From: Candidatus Pacearchaeota archaeon
GTDB taxonomy: Archaea > Nanobdellota > Nanobdellia > Pacearchaeales > GW2011-AR1
Length of the DNA stretch: 43,920 nucleotides
Assembly (NCBI GenBank): GCA_016188895.1
Contig: JACPGZ010000017.1
Span: 66,538-110,457, forward strand
Reading direction: 5' to 3'
In this document: positions 14,601 to 34,400 of the stretch, one piece after another
How the letters are laid out: each line of letters opens with the position of its first letter
How positions within the stretch are numbered: position 1 is the first letter of the stretch
Position numbers and translations under genes: made by a program
Notes under the pieces: generated by a model
Database searches by the model: none
What the model saw: only the letters and a program-made list of their open reading frames with translations
What the model was told of the DNA's origin: nothing

Positions 14601-16590
14601 GACCTTAAATCATGATTTTATGCATCTTAACTCAGAAAACAATATAGAATTTAAGAAGGCGAGAGATATAGCGATTGGCGATAAGGTTTTAATTATGGAT
14701 CATTTAAATTACCAAATTAAGAACCCAAATAATATAGATTTGATTAAATCATTTATTGAGAAACTTCCAGAGGATGTTAAACCTAAGATAAGAATTGTCA
14801 ATTGCAGGGAATTTTTTAAATCATTAGTTGCACGTATTGGGAAACCCTCTCTTTCAGAAATTCTTAATTTTAACAAAACTGCAATGAGGAATTTACATGA
14901 TTGGTATAGTGCAGTTCCTTTGAATCATATAGAATCTCTTATTCTTCATAAAAAATTGAAATATGATGATATACCTAAACAAGCAGGGGTTAGATATTGG
15001 TTTAGCAACTATACATTTCCAAGATTTGTAGATATCAATCAATCTCTTTGTCGTTTATTGGGATATTATACAGCAGAAGGACATTGTAGAGAAAACAAGA
15101 CAACAAGACAGGTAAGCTTTAGAATTTGCAACAACGAGTTAGTTAACAAACTTCTTGAGTGTATAGAAAATTCTTTTAGTATAAAACCAGCAATAGAAGA
15201 GAATAATACAAAGATAACTATCTCTCACGCAATTTTATATTACTTATTTAAGTATGTGTTTGATGCAGGGGTTAATGCAAAAAATAAGAAAATTCCACAG
15301 ATTATTTATTCAATGTCAGACGATTTAGTTTTAGATTATATATCAGGATATACTGATGGGGACGGCAGTATTATTCCAGAAAGAGGAGCTATTGTTTTTT
15401 ATTCTGCAAGTAGATCTTTACTTGATGATTTTGCATTACTACTATCACGATTTCATATTATAGGAAGGTATCAAACCACTAGAGAGCGATTGCCGGGAAA
15501 AAGATTAATTGAGAGATATCATGCCTTAGGATTAGAACCTAGAAAATTTGGTTTATATCATCTTGTTTTTAATGGCAAGGATTGCATGCATCTTGCTTCA
15601 TTGTTGAAATTATCTCATTCAAGGAAATTAAATAAGAGAGATGAGATCTTATCTTTGAAGGTAGAGTCAAGAATTTTAAAATTAAATGGCAGATATATTC
15701 CACTGCATTCTTTTGGAGACTCTTTTATAGATTATATAAAAAAGGTGGAGTTTATTGAGGATGTTGCACATTCTTATTGTGTTGAAGTAGATTGGAATAA
15801 AAAGGAAGAGCGAAGTGTTGTGTGGGGCGAGCAGATTATTAATACAAGATGTGATGGCGATGAGGCCGCTGTTATGCTCCTGCTTGAGATGCTTCTTGAT
15901 TTTTCAATGGAATTTATCCCAGCTCATAAAGGAGGCACACAAGACTGCCCGCTTGTTTTAAATTCAAGAATAAGCGCTGGAGAAGTAGATGATATGATTT
16001 TTGATTTTGATATTGGAAAAAGAATTCCTTTAAGATTGTACAGGGCTGCATGCGAGGGGAAAATGCCATATGAAGTAAAGCTTGAGCAGATAAAAGACAG
16101 AATTGGAAAAGAAGAGTTCAGCAATTTATGGTTTACACATGACACAGAAAGCATTGATTCAGGGGTTTTGTTTTCAAACTATAAAAGACTTCCGACAATG
16201 CAGGAGAAGGTTAAGAGCCAGATGGAGCTTGTCAGCAAAATCCGGGCTGTTGATACAACAGATGTAGCAAGATTGATAATAGAAAGGCATTTTATAAGGG
16301 ATATAAGAGGAAACTTAAGAAAATTCTCATTGCAGCAGTTCAGATGCGTGAAATGCAATGAGAAATATAGGCGACCGCCATTAGCTGGAAATTGCAAGTG
16401 CGGGGGAAGATTGATATTTACTATTTCAGAAGGAAGCATTATCAAGTATTTGGAGCCAGCTATCCTGCTTGCAGAAAATTATAATGTTCCTGCATATGTA
16501 AAGCAGAGCCTTGATTTGACAAAAGGATATATTGAAAGCATTTTTGGAAGGGCAAAAGAAAAACAGGAAGGATTGGGTAAGTGGATTTGA
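11602..16590 (+). CDS. polC: DNA polymerase D large subunit DP2, interrupted by an intein
   Basis: DP2 sequence including CDGDEAAVMLLLEMLLDFS catalytic region; start MKIEGYFNELGKRV (ATG 11602) rather than 11575, which lies in the repeat. Confidence 0.93.
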   Translation: MKIEGYFNELGKRVDETYAVAREAREKGLDPKRHVEIPIAKSLAERVVGLISNLYPQIRNNEIIEFIMKLEMEYGKLDPAICLKIAEEVAMEKFCKFENKLQAIEAGIRIGIAYLTLGVVSSPIEGFTGLKIVKRRDGKEYFSPYYSGPIRSAGGTGAAFSLVIVDHLREIMGYSKYDPDSQEIKRNVTEVLDYHERITNLQYLPSEEEIIFLASHLPVQINGEPSEEREVSNYKDLKRIETNLIRGGFCLVFAEGISQKAPKVWNMIRKLRARGFKLSGWDFLEEFVLFQKKLKESKKESGTVSAVYIQDIVAGRPVLGHPTRSGGFRLRYGRGRGSGYSALSIHPATMFLLDSFIAVGGQLKTEKPTKGAAISVCDTIDGPIVKLRDKSVRYIRDVEIAKKIYKDVEEILYLGDILVPYGDFANRNHVLLKPGFVKEWWYQELIEAGFKEEINYQNINIDDAISFSERYNVSLHPSYIFYWREISYEDFIALIDWMSHGVINKKILLPYNKTERERFQRGKRALELLGAEHNLSLEHVMIEGKTAEAFLVNLGLDKNLLERENFLMDNLFTNISKLEKKDVLLLINETSKYEIRDKSGTFIGARMGRPEKAKLRKLVGSPHTLFPVGIEGGRLRSVQESMEAGFVKADFPLYYCDNCKKETIYSVCEDCSNETKEMYYCRECRQKLFSKCLQHNLGQRYMSMRIDSRHYFNSAVKKLGLYDAEIPVLVKGVRGTSSAHHATENLAKGILRAHFSLNVNKDGTIRYDATELPLTHFKPREIGTSVEKLKEMGYDTDIYGKELVNDNQILEILPHDVVLPACPESLDERADDVFIRIAKFVDELLKRFYATKSFYNISKREDLIGHLVACIAPHNCASVVGRIIGFSKTQGLLASPYMHAAMRRDCVYPKTKLLFFDSNNDLHYPEIGSFVEKLIQKGCKTKIIDGVGTLSIQPDKEYFTYGADPVTKDMVKKKIKYFIKGPLDKQWIKITTSTNRELIMTLNHDFMHLNSENNIEFKKARDIAIGDKVLIMDHLNYQIKNPNNIDLIKSFIEKLPEDVKPKIRIVNCREFFKSLVARIGKPSLSEILNFNKTAMRNLHDWYSAVPLNHIESLILHKKLKYDDIPKQAGVRYWFSNYTFPRFVDINQSLCRLLGYYTAEGHCRENKTTRQVSFRICNNELVNKLLECIENSFSIKPAIEENNTKITISHAILYYLFKYVFDAGVNAKNKKIPQIIYSMSDDLVLDYISGYTDGDGSIIPERGAIVFYSASRSLLDDFALLLSRFHIIGRYQTTRERLPGKRLIERYHALGLEPRKFGLYHLVFNGKDCMHLASLLKLSHSRKLNKRDEILSLKVESRILKLNGRYIPLHSFGDSFIDYIKKVEFIEDVAHSYCVEVDWNKKEERSVVWGEQIINTRCDGDEAAVMLLLEMLLDFSMEFIPAHKGGTQDCPLVLNSRISAGEVDDMIFDFDIGKRIPLRLYRAACEGKMPYEVKLEQIKDRIGKEEFSNLWFTHDTESIDSGVLFSNYKRLPTMQEKVKSQMELVSKIRAVDTTDVARLIIERHFIRDIRGNLRKFSLQQFRCVKCNEKYRRPPLAGNCKCGGRLIFTISEGSIIKYLEPAILLAENYNVPAYVKQSLDLTKGYIESIFGRAKEKQEGLGKWI
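14317..15843 (+). mobile_element. Intein with LAGLIDADG endonuclease in the DP2 catalytic site
   Basis: Starts CVYPKTKLLFFD; TLNH block B; LLGYYTAEGH and ISGYTDGDGS motifs; ends near VVWGEQIIN|TRCDGDE. Confidence 0.9.
16561..16590 (+). repeat. Direct repeat copy 1 (DP2 3' end)
   Basis: aaacaggaaggattgggtaagtggatttga. Confidence 0.95.
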
Positions 16591-24858: not shown

Positions 24859-26133
24859 ATGAAATCTAAATTTAAAATGAACAGAAGCTTATTGGTTTCC
24901 TGTGTAGCATTATTTGCTATACTTTCAGTGTTTACAGTAAGTGCTGGAGAACTTGCAGAGCAGGTTCATATAAACTTTAACGGAATCAGAGTATCTGAAG
25001 GTTCAAGCGCTGTTTTGACTGCATTTGCAGGAGATAGAATACCTTTAGAGGTATTTTTTGTTGCTGCAGATAATGGAGACAGCACGCTAGACTCTATAGA
25101 TAATGTCAAGATAGAAGTTGAAATTTCAGGGCTTAGAGACGATATTGAAGCAGAGACAAGCAGGTTTGATGTATTTGAAAACAATTCATATGTGAAGCTG
25201 TTGACTCTGGAAATCCCAAGCGATTTAGAAGATGAGCTTACAGAAGGATCAGGAGACATCTTTACTCTTGTAGTAAGCATTAAGAGCAAGGGACTTGTGC
25301 ATGAGGCAGAGTTTAATCTGCACTTGCAACGCGAATCTTTTGTTGTAGAGCCGTTGATAGTTCAAGTAGCTCCATCTGTACAAGCTGGCGAGAATCTTGA
25401 AGTAGACATTGTAGCAAAGAACAGAGGATCTGCGAAGCTTAATGACGTGATTGCATTGATAAGCGTCCCGGCATTAGGCATAGAGAAGCTGGTTTTCATA
25501 GATGATTTGTTCCCTGTAGACCGAGGGGATGAAGATGACGCAGACGATGACGCAGAAAGATTAGTGCTTCTAAAGATTCCAGAGAATGCATTAGCAGGAG
25601 TTTACACATTGGATATAGTTATTGAGAACCCTGATGCAGTATCTGAAGTGATAAGAAGGCAATTTGTTGTTGAATCAGCTGTAATGAGAGGATCAGATGT
25701 ATTGGTTCCATTGAGCGCAAAGACGGCAAGAGTTGGCGAAGAGCTTACATTTGACCTTGTTATCCTCAACAGAGGAGACAGAACAGCTGTTTATGAGATA
25801 ATTCCAGAAGCAACTGGAAGCATCTTTGTTTCAGCTATAGAGCCAATTGTTGTTGTTAGCGGAGATTCAAGCAGAACAGTTAAGATAAGGGCTGTTGCAC
25901 AAGAATCAGGCAATTATCCAATAACTGTTACAGTGAACTCTGAAGGGCAACTTGTTGAAAAAGCAACATTGAGCGCGCAAGTGCAAAGAGGAACAACTTC
26001 TATTGCTGCTAGAGGAGATGGAATAGTGGTTTTGACAATAGTGTTGGCAATAGTATTTGTTGTGCTGCTGGTAATCTTGCTGGTATTGCTTACAAGGAAG
26101 CCTAAGAAAGAATCTGAAGAAAGCTATTACTAA
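24859..26133 (+). CDS. Secreted cell-surface protein with signal peptide, Ig-like domains and C-terminal TM anchor
   Basis: N-terminal signal, beta-rich body, C-terminal TM followed by RKPKKESEESYY. Confidence 0.75.
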   Translation: MKSKFKMNRSLLVSCVALFAILSVFTVSAGELAEQVHINFNGIRVSEGSSAVLTAFAGDRIPLEVFFVAADNGDSTLDSIDNVKIEVEISGLRDDIEAETSRFDVFENNSYVKLLTLEIPSDLEDELTEGSGDIFTLVVSIKSKGLVHEAEFNLHLQRESFVVEPLIVQVAPSVQAGENLEVDIVAKNRGSAKLNDVIALISVPALGIEKLVFIDDLFPVDRGDEDDADDDAERLVLLKIPENALAGVYTLDIVIENPDAVSEVIRRQFVVESAVMRGSDVLVPLSAKTARVGEELTFDLVILNRGDRTAVYEIIPEATGSIFVSAIEPIVVVSGDSSRTVKIRAVAQESGNYPITVTVNSEGQLVEKATLSAQVQRGTTSIAARGDGIVVLTIVLAIVFVVLLVILLVLLTRKPKKESEESYY

Positions 26134-26249
26134 ACCTTTTTTTTTGTTTTTATTTATTTTTATTTTTTTAATTTATATCAGTTTTTTATAAAAAGAAGGA
26201 TCAACAATAAAAATATAGATATAATTCTGTCTAATATAAGTTTCATTAA

Positions 26250-26717
26250 TCAATCTTCCAGTAAAATTGGTATAATCTGTTCAAGGTATTTTTTATCTGT
26301 TTCGTCAAAAGCATTATATGTTTTAGCATCAACATCAAAAACTCCGATAACCCTGCCGTTTTCTATAATCGGAATAACAATTTCTGACTTTGATTGGACA
26401 TCACACACAATATGTCCTGGGAATTTGTGAACATCAGGCACAATTATTGCTTCTTTTTTTTGTGCAGATGTGCCGCAAACACCTGTATAAGCTATATTCG
26501 GGCATGCAGATGTTCCTTGATATGGGCCAATAACAAGCTCTTTTTCCTCTGCAAAATAAAATCCGCACCAGAAATAATGAGGCATTGCATGCTTTAGAAC
26601 TGCAGCAATAGTTGCCATTTTTGGAATTATATCTCCCCTGACATTTTCCAATTTTGATTTTATCTCTGCTATTGCATTTTTATACAATTCTTCTTTGTTG
26701 AATGTTTTTATCTGCAT
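26250..26717 (-). CDS. GAF-domain free methionine-R-sulfoxide reductase-like protein
   Basis: YFWCGFYFAEEKELVIGPYQGTSACPNI, GVCGTSA, DVHKFPGHIVCDVQSKSEIVIP. Confidence 0.85.
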   Translation of the reverse strand: MQIKTFNKEELYKNAIAEIKSKLENVRGDIIPKMATIAAVLKHAMPHYFWCGFYFAEEKELVIGPYQGTSACPNIAYTGVCGTSAQKKEAIIVPDVHKFPGHIVCDVQSKSEIVIPIIENGRVIGVFDVDAKTYNAFDETDKKYLEQIIPILLED

Positions 26718-26837
26718 TTTCCATAAAAAATGAAAAAGTTCGTTTTTAAGCTTTTCTGTTTATAGGGTTTAATGAATTTTATGACAGAAAGGTATAAAAG
26801 CAATATAGTCCTTAGAGATTCGCTCCAATTTTAAAAC

Positions 26838-27272
26838 ATGGAAGATATTATTCAGGAGAAGATTAGCGCAGATCATCTTTTATATGTAAGTCTTAAATAT
26901 ACTAAGACAGGGGATGTTATTATTAATTTGATTTTAAGATGGAAGAGCATTATTAACAGATGCTTTGATGCGCTTTTAGCAGATGCTAAAAAAAGGAAAA
27001 AAATAAAGGAAATACCAACAATACCAAAACACAGGATAGAAATTCTTAAAGAAATGTTCAAGGATAATGAAAATGTCACTAAAGTGATAGAGGTTTACGA
27101 ATTTTTTAACAAGATTCAGGGTCTGGATAAAAATGTGGAGCACGAATACAGGAAGAATTTAACGCTTAATGTTTTTTACAACGGGCAGTGGATTGCCATA
27201 AACATGGACAAGCTGAAAGAGTATAATGCACTGCTGGAAAGCTTTATAAGTTTTGTTAAACAGTCTTTTTAA
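26838..27272 (+). CDS. Hypothetical helical protein
   Basis: ORF track; directly precedes MinD. Confidence 0.6.
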   Translation: MEDIIQEKISADHLLYVSLKYTKTGDVIINLILRWKSIINRCFDALLADAKKRKKIKEIPTIPKHRIEILKEMFKDNENVTKVIEVYEFFNKIQGLDKNVEHEYRKNLTLNVFYNGQWIAINMDKLKEYNALLESFISFVKQSF

Positions 27273-27273
27273 C

Positions 27274-28032
27274 ATGGCAAAAGCAATTGTAATCACATCT
27301 GGAAAAGGCGGAGTTGGCAAGTCAACAAGCGCTATAAATATTGGCATTGCATTAAATGCGCTGAAAAAAGATGTTCTTATTGTTGATGCGAATCTCACAA
27401 CTCCAAATGTAGGATTGTATCTTGGAGCTCCAATTGTTCCTGTAAGCCTTAATCATGTGCTAGCTGGAAAAGCAGGCATAGATGATGTTATTTACGAGCA
27501 TGAATCAGGGACAAAAGTCATTCCCTCGTCTATTTCTGTAAAAGAAATTTATAATATAAAATATGACAAGCTTCCGAGCATTATCAAAAAATTAAAGAGA
27601 TTTGCGGATTATATTATCGTGGATTCTGCAGCTGGTTTGGGAGAAGATTCACTAGCAGCTCTTGAGTCTGGCGATGAGGTGATTATTGTGACAAATCCTG
27701 AAATGCCTGCTGTAACAGATGCCTTAAAGACATTAAAAGTTGCGCAAAGCCTTGGCAAAAAAGTCTCAGGAGTTATATTGACAAGATATTCCGGGACAAA
27801 AATTGAGATGTCTGTTGATGGAATAAGAGATTTGCTGGAGATTCCACTGATGGGGGTTGTGCCAGAGGACAAGAGAGTAAAGGAATCGCATTTCATGAAA
27901 AATGCTGTTGTTTTGACACATCCAAGAAGCAAGGCTGCCCGGGAATACAAGAAGATTGCAGCACGCATCTGCGGCAAAGAAGTTCCGCAAGACACTTTAT
28001 ATGAGAGATTTCTTGATGTAGTGAGGGGATAA
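27274..28032 (+). CDS. minD: MinD/ParA-family ATPase
   Basis: SGKGGVGKST deviant Walker A at MAKAIVIT start. Confidence 0.92.
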   Translation: MAKAIVITSGKGGVGKSTSAINIGIALNALKKDVLIVDANLTTPNVGLYLGAPIVPVSLNHVLAGKAGIDDVIYEHESGTKVIPSSISVKEIYNIKYDKLPSIIKKLKRFADYIIVDSAAGLGEDSLAALESGDEVIIVTNPEMPAVTDALKTLKVAQSLGKKVSGVILTRYSGTKIEMSVDGIRDLLEIPLMGVVPEDKRVKESHFMKNAVVLTHPRSKAAREYKKIAARICGKEVPQDTLYERFLDVVRG

Positions 28033-28073
28033 TCCATTTAGAAAACCCTCCTTTATAATGGCTCATAATATGA

Positions 28074-28155
28074 TGCGCCGACCGGGAGTTGAACCCGGAC
28101 TATCAGCTGTTTCCAATTTTGGGAAGCTGAGATTCTACCATTAAATTATCGGCGC
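28074..28155 (-). tRNA. tRNA-Gly(CCC) with 11-nt intron (28109-28119)
   Basis: GCGCCGA...TCGGCGC acceptor, A73, anticodon stem TCAGC/GCTGA enclosing TTCCCA|AAATTGGAAAC|A. Confidence 0.88.
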
Positions 28156-28158
28156 TAA

Positions 28159-28215
28159 GCCCATTGCATAGGGCATCGCAGTTGCATAGTACGGATGGCA
28201 TCGGAAACATAGAGT
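28159..28215 (+). repeat. 36-nt repeat family, third locus (1 full plus truncated unit)
   Basis: gcccattgcatagggcatcgcagttgcatagtacgg + atggcatcggaaacatagagt. Confidence 0.88.
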
Positions 28216-28295
28216 TATTCCTCCTTAGACTATCTCCTAATATCTTTATATTTCTTTATAATTAATTTTATATATAAAATCTCTTTTTGTTATAA

Positions 28296-28826
28296 ATGGC
28301 TAAATCAAGGAAAAAGAAAGAAGAAATTAATCTTGATGAATTAGATATCAACCAGTTATTAAATGAAGCAGTTGCAACTTCTCGTTTAGGAAGGGCATTA
28401 GCGAGTTTGGGAGCTACTTTAACAGGCAGGGAGAAACATGATGCAGGTTTAGTCTATCTTTTGCTTAAAGCTGGAAAAGAATATTCAGGAAAATTTCCAG
28501 TTGTAGCAGAAATAAAAGATGTACCAGAATTAAAAAAGTATACCCCAAAAGAAGCAATTGATTGGTTTGCTGGTCGCTATCCAAAAGAAGCAGGACCTCT
28601 TCTCAAAAAATTGGAGGAAGAATATACAAAACCCAAGACAGAAATTAACTATGGGTTAAGAAAGAACAAGGATTTGTCAGATTCGCTTTATATAGAAACT
28701 TTGTCACAAATTCTTAATATATCAGATGATCGAGCCAGAGTTTTGTATCATGGCATTATTAAACCATATCTTGATCAACAAGAAGAGGAGAGTAAACTTG
28801 TTAGTATAACAATCAAAGAAAACTAA
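28296..28826 (+). CDS. Hypothetical protein
   Basis: ORF track, lysine-rich N-terminus. Confidence 0.65.
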   Translation: MAKSRKKKEEINLDELDINQLLNEAVATSRLGRALASLGATLTGREKHDAGLVYLLLKAGKEYSGKFPVVAEIKDVPELKKYTPKEAIDWFAGRYPKEAGPLLKKLEEEYTKPKTEINYGLRKNKDLSDSLYIETLSQILNISDDRARVLYHGIIKPYLDQQEEESKLVSITIKEN

Positions 28827-28865
28827 AAAAGAAAGTCTTTTATATCTTTTATTTCTTCAATTTAA

Positions 28866-28949
28866 ATGACAGCGAGCAAGTTTTATGTTACAACCCCGAT
28901 GATCACTTTCCACTTTTCACACTTTTCAGGCACTAACATAAAGTATTAA
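28866..28949 (+). pseudogene. Orphan 5' stub of methionyl-tRNA synthetase
   Basis: MTASKFYVTTPM... then unrelated residues and stop; compare metG start MASKKFYITTAIDYVNAHPHIGHAY. Confidence 0.75.
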
Positions 28950-28952
28950 TAA

Positions 28953-29948
28953 ATGAATTTCCATATAAACTGGATGAAAAGTATCAATATTTCTAGGGAA
29001 AGTCTAGAGGATTTATATAAAAAAGATAAATTATCAACATATGAAATAGCAGAAGAATTTGGTTGTTGTCAGGCAACTATATGGAAAAGATTAGTAGAAT
29101 TTGATATTAAAAGAAGAAAACCTCACGAGCTTAATTCTAATGTTCCTACAAAGGAAAAATTGATTGAATTGTATTTTAATAAGAGATTATCTACTTGGAG
29201 AATAGAAAAGGAATATGGATACTCTAGAGGTACGATTTACAGAAAGTTAAAAGAATTTGGATTGAAAACAAGGGATTTAGCTGACTCTCATATAATTTAT
29301 CCTAGACAAAATTTTTCTGGTGACCCAATAGAAAAAGCATATTTGATAGGATTTAGAATTGGAGATCTTGGTGTCAGAAAAATCTATCCAAATAGTAAGA
29401 CTATTTGTGTAGCAAGCGGAAGCACTATTAAAGAACAAATAGACTTAATAAAAAGTTTATTCGAAAAATATGGTAAGACTTGGATTCAGACTAAAAACGG
29501 CAAGATAAACATCCAAATTAATTTGAATGAATCTTTTGAGTTTCTATTAAGTAAAGATGTACCTAAATGGGCTCTGGATAAGGAAGATTATTTTTTCTCA
29601 TTTCTTGCAGGTTTTACAGATGCAGAAGGAAGTTTTTATATATCTAAAGGTATGGCTGCCTATTCTATAGGAAACTGCGATTTTAATTTGCTATCTATTA
29701 TTAAAAAAAATCTTAACAGATTCGGGATATCTTGTGGTAGAATATCAACTCATAAAAGAAAAGGAAAACCAACAACAGACGGTTATTTTTTTAGTTCTGA
29801 TTATTATCAACTAAGAATAGATAAAAAAGCAGTTTTATTGCAGCTTTTTACTAAATTAAAAACATTTATTAAACATGAAAATAAGATGAAAGCATTAAAT
29901 ATAGCTACTGAAAATATTAATTGGAGAAATCTAAAATATGGCAAGTAA
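28953..29948 (+). CDS. LAGLIDADG homing endonuclease with tandem N-terminal HTH motifs
   Basis: Two HTH repeats (LSTYEIAEEFGCCQATIWKRL / LSTWRIEKEYGYSRGTIYRKL); AYLIGFRIGDLG and FLAGFTDAEGSFYI motifs. Confidence 0.9.
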   Translation: MNFHINWMKSINISRESLEDLYKKDKLSTYEIAEEFGCCQATIWKRLVEFDIKRRKPHELNSNVPTKEKLIELYFNKRLSTWRIEKEYGYSRGTIYRKLKEFGLKTRDLADSHIIYPRQNFSGDPIEKAYLIGFRIGDLGVRKIYPNSKTICVASGSTIKEQIDLIKSLFEKYGKTWIQTKNGKINIQINLNESFEFLLSKDVPKWALDKEDYFFSFLAGFTDAEGSFYISKGMAAYSIGNCDFNLLSIIKKNLNRFGISCGRISTHKRKGKPTTDGYFFSSDYYQLRIDKKAVLLQLFTKLKTFIKHENKMKALNIATENINWRNLKYGK

Positions 29949-31383
29949 AAAATTTTACATAACAACTGCAATTGATTATGTAAATGCACATCCTCACATC
30001 GGGCACGCATATCAAAAGATTGCAGCTGATGTTTTAGCTAGATGGCATCGTATTCAAGGAGATAAGGTATTTTTTTTGACAGGAACTGATGAACATGGAC
30101 AAAAAATAGCAAAAGCTGCTAAAGAAGCTGGACTGAGTGAAAAGAAATTTGTTGATAAAATTAGCAGTGAATTTATAGATGCTTGGAAAAATCTAGGAAT
30201 TAGTTATAATAGATTTATTAGAACAACTGATAAAGATCATGAAGAAGTTGCTAAAAAATTTGTAGAACTAATGAATAAGAAAGGTGATATTTACAAAGGA
30301 ACTTATGAAGGATTGTATTGCGAGGGATGCGAGGCTTTTATTACTGAAAAGGAACTTGTTAATGGAAGATGCAGGTTTCATCCTAATTTAGAGCCAAAAA
30401 GATTAAAAGAGGATACATATTATTTCAGATTGAGCAAATATCAAGATAAACTTCTAAAACTTTATGAGAAGAACAAGGAATTTATCTCTCCATCAAAAAG
30501 AAGAAATGAGATAATAAATAGGGTTAAAGAAGGGTTGAAGGATTTGAGCATTACAAGAACAAGTGTGACATGGGGAATTCCTTTTCCATTAGAAAAAGGA
30601 CATTCCATTTATGTTTGGTATGAGGCCTTGCTTAGTTACCTTGCTGGAATCGGATGGCCTAATAAAAAATATGAAAAGTTTTGGCCTGCTGATGTTCAGT
30701 TGCTTGGCGTTGATAATAGTTGGTTTCATTGCGTGATTTTGCCTGCAATGCTGATGTCTGTTGGAATAGAACCCCCAAAAAAGATTTACATTCATGGTTT
30801 TCTTACATTTAACAGACAGAAGATAAGTAAATCCTTAGGAAATGTGATATCTCCTAAGTATCTTGTTGATAAATATGGATATGATTCTGTTAGATATTAT
30901 GCTATGAGAGCTAATCCTTTCGGAGATGACGGTGACTTTTCAGAGCAGGCATTGAAAGATAGGCATAACAATGAGCTTGCAAACAAGCTTGGCAATTTAT
31001 TCAGCAGGATTACTGCACTTGGGGAAAAGCATGGATTGGAAAAAGGTAAGAATGAGTTACTGAAAAAACTTGATATTAAGAAAATAGATAAATTATTTGA
31101 TAGTCTGGAATTTGATAAGGTATTGAATGAAATTTTTGCCTTTATTGATTTATGTAATGAATATGTTCAGAGAAAAATGCTTTGGGAAGCAGAAAATAAA
31201 AAACAGATTTATGAAGTGCTTGATAGTTTAAAAGCAATTGCAATTTTGCTTTATCCATTCATGCCTGCTTCTTGCGAGAAAATTGCAAAGCATCTTGGGT
31301 TTAAAATTGCATATAACGAGATAGAGAAGCCTCTGCGGGAACGCAGTGTCGAAAGAGCAGAGGCGTTGTTTAAGAAGATTTAG
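29938..31383 (+). CDS. metG: Methionyl-tRNA synthetase
   Basis: YVNAHPHIGHAY (HIGH), CEGCEAFI zinc knuckle, WFHC, QKISKSLGN (KMSKS-like). Confidence 0.95.
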   Translation: MASKKFYITTAIDYVNAHPHIGHAYQKIAADVLARWHRIQGDKVFFLTGTDEHGQKIAKAAKEAGLSEKKFVDKISSEFIDAWKNLGISYNRFIRTTDKDHEEVAKKFVELMNKKGDIYKGTYEGLYCEGCEAFITEKELVNGRCRFHPNLEPKRLKEDTYYFRLSKYQDKLLKLYEKNKEFISPSKRRNEIINRVKEGLKDLSITRTSVTWGIPFPLEKGHSIYVWYEALLSYLAGIGWPNKKYEKFWPADVQLLGVDNSWFHCVILPAMLMSVGIEPPKKIYIHGFLTFNRQKISKSLGNVISPKYLVDKYGYDSVRYYAMRANPFGDDGDFSEQALKDRHNNELANKLGNLFSRITALGEKHGLEKGKNELLKKLDIKKIDKLFDSLEFDKVLNEIFAFIDLCNEYVQRKMLWEAENKKQIYEVLDSLKAIAILLYPFMPASCEKIAKHLGFKIAYNEIEKPLRERSVERAEALFKKI

Positions 31384-31418
31384 TAAGATTTATATAAATT
31401 CATTCTTCATTATAGAAG

Positions 31419-34400
31419 ATGGTGAAAAAGATAGGCAAAAAGAGAGGCAAAGAAGAAAAAAGAAGAGGCAGGTCAAAGAATAAAGGACTTTATTATCTTA
31501 CTTTCTTCTTAGTATTTGTTATCGCATTTATCTTGTTTTCAATTGTATTTTTGAATGTTCTTTCAGCGTTTCCTGACAAGCCTCGTGTGCGAGGCTTGTT
31601 TCAGAGTATTGATGAATTGAATGTTCCGTTTTTCAAGGCGTTTGTGATAACAGGGAGACAGATAAGCGGACAGGCGACTCTTGTTTGTACGAATGGATTG
31701 GCTGATTGCGCTGCTAGTATGCAGTCGGGAGATTGGGCTGAATTGCAGACTAATAATATTAATCCGACTTTAGATGCAGATGGCTCAAGCGGATTTTTGC
31801 TTGGATTTGCAGAGAGCATTCGGTGGGATCCTACCTCTAGAAAGTTATTCTTCGTAGGAGCAGATCATGGCGATAGCACCCATTTTGTGATTTACGATGA
31901 GCTGACTAACGATTGGTATCGCAATGACGCTGGAGCGCCTCTTCCAGGGGGAGTTAATCATGGGTATGACCATATGGCTGTTGATCCTACAAGAGGGTAT
32001 TTTTATGTAAGGCATGGGTACACAGGAACTTATTTGGATCGGTACCATATTGCTAGTGAAACTTGGACAGCGACTCCTTCCAATAGTGATAATGGGTGTT
32101 GTAATGGAATAGATTATTTTTCTGAGTTGGATGGCGTGCTTTGGTACGGAGGCATGAGCCTTCTTCTTTACAAGGAAACCACGAATCAATGGACAACGCT
32201 TACGACGAGCGCTCCCGCAGGAACCTACAATAATTTCTTGGAGTCTAACCCAATTCACAAAGTGGCGATTTTTGGAGGAGGAAATGGAGATAGGCGTCTT
32301 TATAAAGTGAATGGCAGTGAGCAGGTGAGCGCTCTCTCAAATGCCTCTATTGATCTTGGAACACAAGATAGCATGGTGACTTTTGATCCTATTGAAGGGG
32401 ATTATTTGGTCTTTGCTAATGGAAGACAGTTTTGGCGATACAATGTCGTGACAGATTCATGGCAGAACTTAACTGCAACCGCGAATATTCCTGCGCGTGT
32501 TTGGCGTGATACTGACCGTGTCCATGGTATGGTAACTGGAGCGATTCCAACCCATGGTGTTATTGTTGTTGTGACTTGTGATGGGGGCAGTCCTCTTCCA
32601 GATTGCAGAGTGCATTTGTATAAGCATGCTCCTTCTGCGCCAGATACAAATCCTCCCGCTACTATTTCTAATCTTGCTGTTAATTCTTGCTCTCAGAATA
32701 ATTGCACGCTTTCTTGGACAGCGCCTGGAGATGACGGGAATACAGGGGCTGCTGTTTCGTATGATGTTAGGTATTCAACATCTCCTATTACGACGGCAAA
32801 TTGGGCGAGTGCTACACAAGTTTCAGGAGAGCCTTTTCCTCAAATTGCCGGGACTTCGCAGAATATGATAGTTTCTGGATTACAATCTGGAGTAAGTTAT
32901 TATTTTGCTATTATAGCAAGTGATGATGCTGGGAATCAAGGAGGATTGAGCAATGTGGCTAGTGGGTTAACGGCTCTACCTCCTGTTTACATAGGCGGAT
33001 ATCCCATGCCTTTACTTGAAGATGAAAAGAATGCTTACCGAAAATGGAATTGGACGTGGACAACGAGTATAGAGCCTGATCTTCCTTGTTCCTATCCTTC
33101 AGATACTCCGCCTTGCAGTCAGTATTTTGTTTCAGACCCCGATATTCACTATGATACAGAAGGCGATGATTTGTGGACTTACTTGATGATGTATCTTCGT
33201 ACTGGGGAGAATGGGTACCTGGATCGTGCCAATGCTTGGGCGCGTTATTTCAAAGATGATTATAGGAATTGTGTAGGCAGTCCTAGTTTGACTTTTTGTA
33301 ATGATAAAGCGGGATATGGCATAGATCATATGTATGGATGGGGGCTTGTGGCTTTGTATGAATACACAAAAGATACTGACCCTATTGGTGCGCAGGAGGC
33401 TCTCACAGAAGCAGAAAATCTTGCTGCTGAAGTTGAATCCCAATGGATTGGTGCTGTGCCAGGACAGTATAGGATGGCAGATACTGGCATGCGACGAGCT
33501 GCACGACATCTTCTTCTGGTAACTCGTGTGGCTGAAGCCACTAAGAAACAACGCTGGATTGATCTCAGAGATAGATTGATTGAGCTCTGGATACAATCTC
33601 CTGATTGGGATGCCAGAGGAATGTATTTTGTAGGGCAATGGTCTACTGATACTATTACATATCCTGGATATAATGGCGGGACTTATGCTGATGGTGTTCG
33701 CAAGCAATCAGCATTCCACATTGGTCTTGTAGCTGAAGCTTTTTTTCAGGCATATAGGGTGACAGGGCGTCAGGAGCTAAAGGATCGCGCGATTGCCATG
33801 GCAAGATATGTTGAGCAATATGGGCTCGAGCCCACATCTCAATATACTGCAGCCTTTTTTGGATTTAATGCGACTGGCGGGCTTTGGTATAGCTATATAG
33901 ACCCTGTCTATACCACAGACTTGGTGAATATCTTGATGCTCGGATATAAATATACTGGTGAGCAGCATTTTTACGACCAGGCAGTTTACTTTTTTAATCG
34001 TGGAACGAAAGGAGCTTATTCCACTGGAGCGCGTCTTGCTGCTGACAACGAGGTTCATCATTTCATAGATACTCTCTTTGATAGTTCGTACGGCAATTTT
34101 TATCTTTCTAGAAATAAGGGAGAGCTGCTTTTCACTTATTTGATCTTTGAGTCTGGGAATTCTCCTGTGTCAGACACAACTCCTCCAACAACACCAACAG
34201 GATTGACAGCAAATGCAGTGAGCAGTTCAAGAATAGATTTGACATGGACAGCATCAAGTGATGATGAATCTGGGATTGCTAATTATAAAGTTTATAGGAA
34301 TAATGTTAATGTGGGGCAGCCGACTACAACTTCATTTAGTGATACAGGATTGAGTGAAGGGCAAAGTTATAGCTATGAAGTTAGTGCTGTGAATGGGGCT

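Follow-up and report, generated by a model that had tools for sequence, protein, structure and literature searches.

The usual way for an endonuclease gene to live in an essential gene is within an intein or a self-splicing intron, and LAGLIDADG enzymes are commonly borne by one or the other. The LAGLIDADG group I introns and inteins of archaea and CPR bacteria, such as the CPR rRNA insertions, involve the same endonuclease superfamily as the locus described here and partly the same hosts, whereas at our locus there is no splicing element and the gene appears to be rescued at the DNA level by a complete 5′ end (PMC11270868). The nearest known case is that of the mobile ORFs of fungal mitochondria, which carry foreign C-termini (Allomyces atp6; Glomus atp6, atp9, cox2 and nad3; PMC3630166). 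There, as here, an essential gene harbours an endonuclease gene and, with it, a foreign gene end of diverged sequence, the native end is kept as a stub, and the two copies have diverged at synonymous positions. In the fungal elements, however, it is the C-terminus that is replaced, the remnant lies downstream and the setting is mitochondrial, whereas in the archaea and bacteria described here the element replaces the N-terminus or the 5′ part of a tRNA gene and leaves the remnant upstream (PMC3630166).

Two further systems bear comparison. The intronless homing of the T4 Seg and Mob enzymes also involves a free-standing endonuclease gene adjoining a conserved gene, and it spreads by break repair with co-conversion, a route that we infer for the present loci (PMC2988022). 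The T4-type genes either lie between genes, at a distance of hundreds or thousands of bases from their cut sites, or split a gene into two working parts, as mobE does with nrdA (PMC2988022); here, in contrast, the gene start is broken and rebuilt, a stub is left, and the ends of the stubs suggest cutting at the insertion site. Engineered home-and-rescue drives are built on a like plan, in which the cutter is inserted into the essential gene that it cuts and a functional version of that gene comes with it, but they use Cas9 in Drosophila, whereas the enzymes described here are natural LAGLIDADG proteins whose mechanism is deduced from gene anatomy (PMC7968924). In the open-access literature that we searched we found no prokaryotic or N-terminal precedent.

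A displaced metG start in the window

The window, a stretch of 43,920 nucleotides, is part of contig C37 of the 970-kb draft genome of a small archaeon (G000). Behind a conserved 176-aa gene it contains the first codons of metG, then a free-standing endonuclease gene and then an intact metG (Table 1). Reading from 28866 gives MTASKFYVTTPM ITFHFSHFSGTNIKY and two stops, with unrelated sequence after MTASKFYVTTPM. The first-pass annotation had described this arrangement as an orphan metG stub ahead of an endonuclease gene and an intact metG, and translation, a profile of metG N-termini and synteny bear it out; ORF coordinates likewise confirm that the end of the LAGLIDADG gene (LKYGK and the stop codon) overlaps the metG ATG. 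The description of the stub as running into unrelated sequence holds with two corrections: homology extends through codon 11 and two further bases (CCG AT), and what follows is a 54-nt repeat that is present at nine places in the genome. The true start of the endonuclease is probably 28974 and not 28953. The product of the intact gene has a methionyl-tRNA synthetase match in Pfam, and the gene is the only strong metG match in a search of G000, which makes it the presumed functional copy.

Table 1. Positions of features at the metG locus of the window and at the kae1 locus of the same genome.
Feature	Position	Strand	Basis
Conserved 176-aa gene (synteny marker)	28296..28826	+	tblastn against relatives' loci, spacer measurement
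39-nt leader with TATA-like CTTTTATATC	28827..28865	+	spacer of 36/44 nt ahead of metG in relatives
Orphan metG 5′ stub MTASKFYVTTP (codons 1-11 and two further bases)	28866..28900	+	translation, metG N-terminal profile
Left-end repeat, about 54 nt, with TATA-like AAAGTATTAATAA	28904..28959	+	DNA search of G000, 9 strong sites
Predicted homing endonuclease gene, free-standing, 331 aa	28953..29948	+	ORF, Pfam, AlphaFold model, PDB fold matches
First LAGLIDADG motif AYLIGFRIGDL, acidic residue D138	29337..29369	+	alignment
Second LAGLIDADG motif FLAGFTDAEG, acidic residue E225	29601..29630	+	alignment
Endonuclease stop/metG start overlap, 11 nt	29938..29948	+	ORF coordinates
Intact metG, methionyl-tRNA synthetase, 481 aa, start MASKKFYITTAIDYVNAHPHIGHAY	29938..31383	+	Pfam, genome search
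kae1 locus L056 (G000:C56)	stub 1533-1565, endonuclease 1632-2918, restart 2891

In two endonuclease-free relatives the 176-aa gene directly precedes metG, with 36 nt (G018) and 44 nt (G101) between its stop and metG, and in the window its stop lies 39 nt from the stub. From this similar spacing we conclude that metG originally began where the stub now lies. A TATA-like box is found about 25 nt 5′ of metG in most endonuclease-free relatives, and a similar box stands ahead of the window stub; we take the 39-nt leader to be the ancestral metG promoter, now placed ahead of the stub. The proposal first made from this locus, that an endonuclease gene displaced the metG start, is thus supported by synteny with endonuclease-free relatives; other genomes, in which homologous insertions interrupt the gene at the same codons, and the same layout at unrelated genes add to the support, as described below. 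An upstream MTASKFYVTT reading frame in genomes that lack the endonuclease would speak against it, and among 42 endonuclease-free loci none has a match as good as the stub of G152 or that of G000.

Recurrence at metG and at other genes

Homologous endonucleases lie directly 5′ of metG in six further genomes of the order (G072, G040, G211, G152, G102 and G104), and in three of these (G040, G152 and G104; loci L041, L073 and L076) a single open frame runs through both genes. The stub is clear in G152, G000 and G040 and weaker in G072, G104 and G102, where 1, 2 and 16 of 300 shuffles respectively score as well; by the same metG N-terminal profile and shuffle test it is absent from G211. The G152 stub, MAKKFYITTAIDY, is identical to the metG start of the endonuclease-free G029. 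The stubs of these genomes end at about codons 11–16. They also fall into recognizable types, the stub being TTAIDY(V/I)N and the intact metG TTPIYY in G152, G040, G102 and G104, with the two reversed in G000. Named relatives that carry the endonuclease include Nanoarchaeota, Pacearchaeota and Woesearchaeota MAGs, and nearly all of the genomes are draft metagenome assemblies.

A wider collection, found with a metG-seeded profile, comprises 88 distinct loci of the endonuclease family in archaea and bacteria. The gene behind the endonuclease is metG at 42 of these, lepA at 11 and yebC at five, proportions that are biased by the seeding with metG. Relative to the endonuclease stop, metG begins within −35 to +29 nt at 40 of the 42 loci where it follows. 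The significance of stubs was assessed with target-gene profiles, an all-against-all null being inflated because many loci share a target. Native stubs are statistically clear (at most 5/500 shuffles) at 9/42 metG loci; among the nine are the stubs of a Hadesarchaea MAG (34 aa) and of a Woesebacteria MAG, and there are clear ones in CPR bacteria. Roughly three quarters of the metG loci and all five yebC loci are without a statistically clear stub when scored with the target profiles, an absence that counts against the mechanism proposed below but could be explained by decay. We saw no clear 3′ remnant of the old metG in 37 loci; candidates at five of them were read as neighbouring class I synthetases, and the one case followed in detail was an N-terminal match.

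Among the other protein-gene targets, lepA has clear stubs at six of its 11 loci when scored with the target profile, and these end at IRNF.IIAH, immediately ahead of the P-loop. Stubs of the matching gene also stand ahead of endonucleases at the genes for the 3-methyladenine glycosylase AAG (L043), an AmmeMemoRadiSam radical SAM protein (L042/L214) and miaB (L198). In the reading set out below, related endonucleases use the same strategy at lepA and apparently also at miaB, AAG, yebC and the radical SAM gene. A tree of 58 endonucleases has two changes of target label (metG, lepA or yebC), which is the minimum and compares with a mean of 15 after shuffling, and seven changes of host domain; these few target changes and seven host-domain changes indicate enzymes that are tied to a target gene and move between hosts.

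A different LAGLIDADG_3 endonuclease occupies kae1 in G000 (contig C56; Table 1), where the stub MTIILGIESTC is followed by the endonuclease and then by a new start. About 11 nt inserted just behind this start put kae1 out of frame, possibly as a cutting scar or through an assembly error.

The layout extends to tRNA genes. A further LAGLIDADG_3 subfamily, collected with a query from G000 contig C29 (loci L225–L254, for example G000:C29:9874-10767), is flanked by a tRNA 5′ stub on one side and by a complete tRNA gene on the other, the 5′ end of the latter overlapping the stop of the endonuclease. This overlap is present at all 29 readable loci and measures 10–16 nt in 25 of them. At eight loci the 5′ stub is unmatched in 500 shuffles; the stubs end near tRNA position 25. 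Isotypes were taken from ARAGORN with introns allowed and are uncertain.

Proposed mechanism and alternative readings

We consider it likely, from sequence comparison, that a free-standing LAGLIDADG endonuclease invades a conserved gene by homing and makes the gene whole again with a 5′ part of diverged sequence. The ends of the stubs suggest that the enzyme would cut an uninterrupted metG near codons 10–17, just ahead of the HIGH-motif codons, and repair of the break from the invaded allele would then involve two exchanges, one within the leader or 5′ end of metG and the other farther downstream in the gene. The old 5′ end, seen at the loci as a stub, would decay in place behind its putative promoter, the endonuclease would gain a promoter of its own, and metG would restart from the ATG that overlaps or abuts the endonuclease stop. 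Neither an intron nor an intein would be needed, since the invading allele carries a complete, diverged metG 5′ part directly behind the endonuclease. This replacement part is probably uncleavable, and the restored copy would escape cutting through its differing sequence. The other LAGLIDADG_3 endonuclease at kae1 and the further subfamily at tRNA genes would follow the same strategy. Somewhat less firmly, we suggest that these loci represent a broad class of prokaryotic homing endonucleases that, without intron or intein, swap the 5′ part of essential protein genes and tRNA genes after cuts at conserved 5′-proximal codons, acting as a natural home-and-rescue drive that leaves stubs behind and, in archaea and CPR bacteria alike, turns core genes such as metG and lepA into mosaics.

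Breaking a gene and returning a diverged front end would be an alternative way into essential genes, and, if true, a natural counterpart of engineered home-and-rescue drives in two domains of life and at several targets. It would also give a specific cause for mosaic aminoacyl-tRNA synthetase genes, which can mislead phylogenies. The loci would also offer ready sets of cutter, target and resistant copy for cleavage tests.

The first-pass annotation had suggested that the downstream metG start came from a foreign metG together with the endonuclease and not by local duplication. The latter part stands: many synonymous differences separate stub and intact copy in all 12 pairs compared, such that of 112 codons for the same amino acid 43 are identical as codons, and this divergence rules out local duplication. 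Stub and intact copy are moreover of different metG types in G152 and in the Hadesarchaea MAG. Arrival together with the endonuclease has support at shallow depth only. G102 and G104, whose endonucleases are 68% identical, have about 82% identity over metG codons 1–60 and about 50% thereafter, and the last 60 residues of the G104 MetG are 91% identical to those of the endonuclease-free G107 of the same genus. Mosaic metG of this kind, also present in the pair G040 and G152 described below, speaks for the proposed mechanism. Across 34 loci, in contrast, a Mantel test finds no correlation between endonuclease distance and the first 40 residues of MetG (r 0.03, p 0.34); the 3′ part is tracked weakly, slightly better than the 5′ part. 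We infer that the 5′ part was transferred with the endonuclease at the event and that the link was then eroded by recombination.

Alternatively, the new 5′ end was not brought by the endonuclease and came from a second metG acquired by horizontal transfer, or from a pre-existing resistant allele recombined at the locus. Consistent with this are the missing deep correlation and the pair G040 and G152, in which metG codons 1–360 are common (75–89% identity) before identity drops, although their endonucleases belong to different clades (42% identity); a second metG-like gene is present in G211 and in G094. However, the constant geometry between endonuclease and start, at 40 of the 42 metG loci and at the lepA, yebC and tRNA loci, would be unexpected from unlinked events. 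Furthermore, metG is normally single-copy and needed by the cell, so that breakage of the old 5′ end requires a complete one already at hand, most likely delivered by the same event. We therefore regard a separate origin as unlikely and favour delivery of the 5′ part with the endonuclease.

The HTH-LAGLIDADG protein itself could be read as a domesticated regulator of the downstream gene in place of an active endonuclease. WhiA, a transcription factor derived from LAGLIDADG, offers a parallel, and the genes always adjoin their targets. The window protein has a LAGLIDADG_3 match above the Pfam cut-off and weak HTH matches, and is laid out as two HTH units at the N-terminus followed by a two-motif LAGLIDADG domain. 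Its AlphaFold model has a pLDDT of 90.7, and a Foldseek search against the PDB places PI-PfuI, E-DreI and I-DmoI as the nearest solved folds (E about 1e-8 to 1e-9). Residues G137, D138 and L139 and residues D223, A224 and E225 are invariant in 25 aligned endonucleases, with D138 and E225 as the catalytic acids. The model and its structural matches confirm the LAGLIDADG fold in silico. The invariance of both acids argues against a purely regulatory role, as do the patchy distribution (10 of 92 relatives), transfers between archaea and bacteria and the stubs that mark insertion events, and we judge such a role very improbable.

We give even less credence to the insert being an intron or intein, with the stub as exon 1 spliced or ligated to the metG interior, despite the common residence of LAGLIDADG enzymes in such elements and the three genomes in which endonuclease and metG form one open frame. 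A permissive Rfam search of 26000-32000 returned nothing from the group I and group II intron families at E ≤ 5, Pfam gave no Hint or intein domain, and stop codons lie between the stub and the endonuclease. The insertion had been described as free of intein and intron, in agreement with these searches; the empty results and the stops between stub and metG speak strongly against splicing, and at many loci the stub is frameshifted or gone and the downstream start is complete. A chance resemblance or a small unrelated ORF can be dismissed as an explanation of the stub with still greater assurance, for although the stub has just 11 codons, and over 1.3 kb scanned the window scores 6.7 bits and the best endonuclease-free control 5.7 bits, it scores 12.0 bits against the profile of metG N-termini, a value reached by 0/300 dinucleotide shuffles of the same region, its ancestral position by synteny contradicts chance, and longer stubs of the matching gene occur at other targets and in other genomes. 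That best control match, ATATAACAACGGCGATTATC at the metG promoter of the endonuclease-free G025 (L019), reads Y/I-ITTAII and could be chance or the scar of a lost insertion.

The upstream repeat and other mobile-looking genes

The repeat of about 54 nt between stub and endonuclease is CACTTTTCACACTTTTCAGGCACTANCATAAAGTATTTATAA. Its sites in G000 are in the window, on contigs C28, C56, C39, C12, C62 and C33, and at C37:28048 and C29:4333, and it precedes LAGLIDADG endonucleases (including the kae1 insertion), a tyrosine-recombinase-like ORF and an HTH-repeat protein with a nuclease-like end. We dropped an interpretation of the repeat as an element end, since the recombinase-like gene also has it upstream; it looks like a shared promoter of mobile or selfish genes. 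A defence-system scan gave nothing beyond one marginal match.

Several other genes have related domains. On the same contig a gene for a 348-aa HTH-LAGLIDADG protein (L006; G000:C37 ~61772-62818) lies 41 nt 5′ of a large helicase gene, with no stub seen. Elsewhere in the window, at ~15052-15504 (G000:C37:81589-82041), an open reading frame about 1675 aa long contains two LAGLIDADG_3 matches, which may belong to an intein in a large protein. Arrays of several HTH units akin to the endonuclease N-terminus are present in frames of 440–850 aa, for example in G071 (C1:199941-200612), G038 (C19) and G192 (C2).
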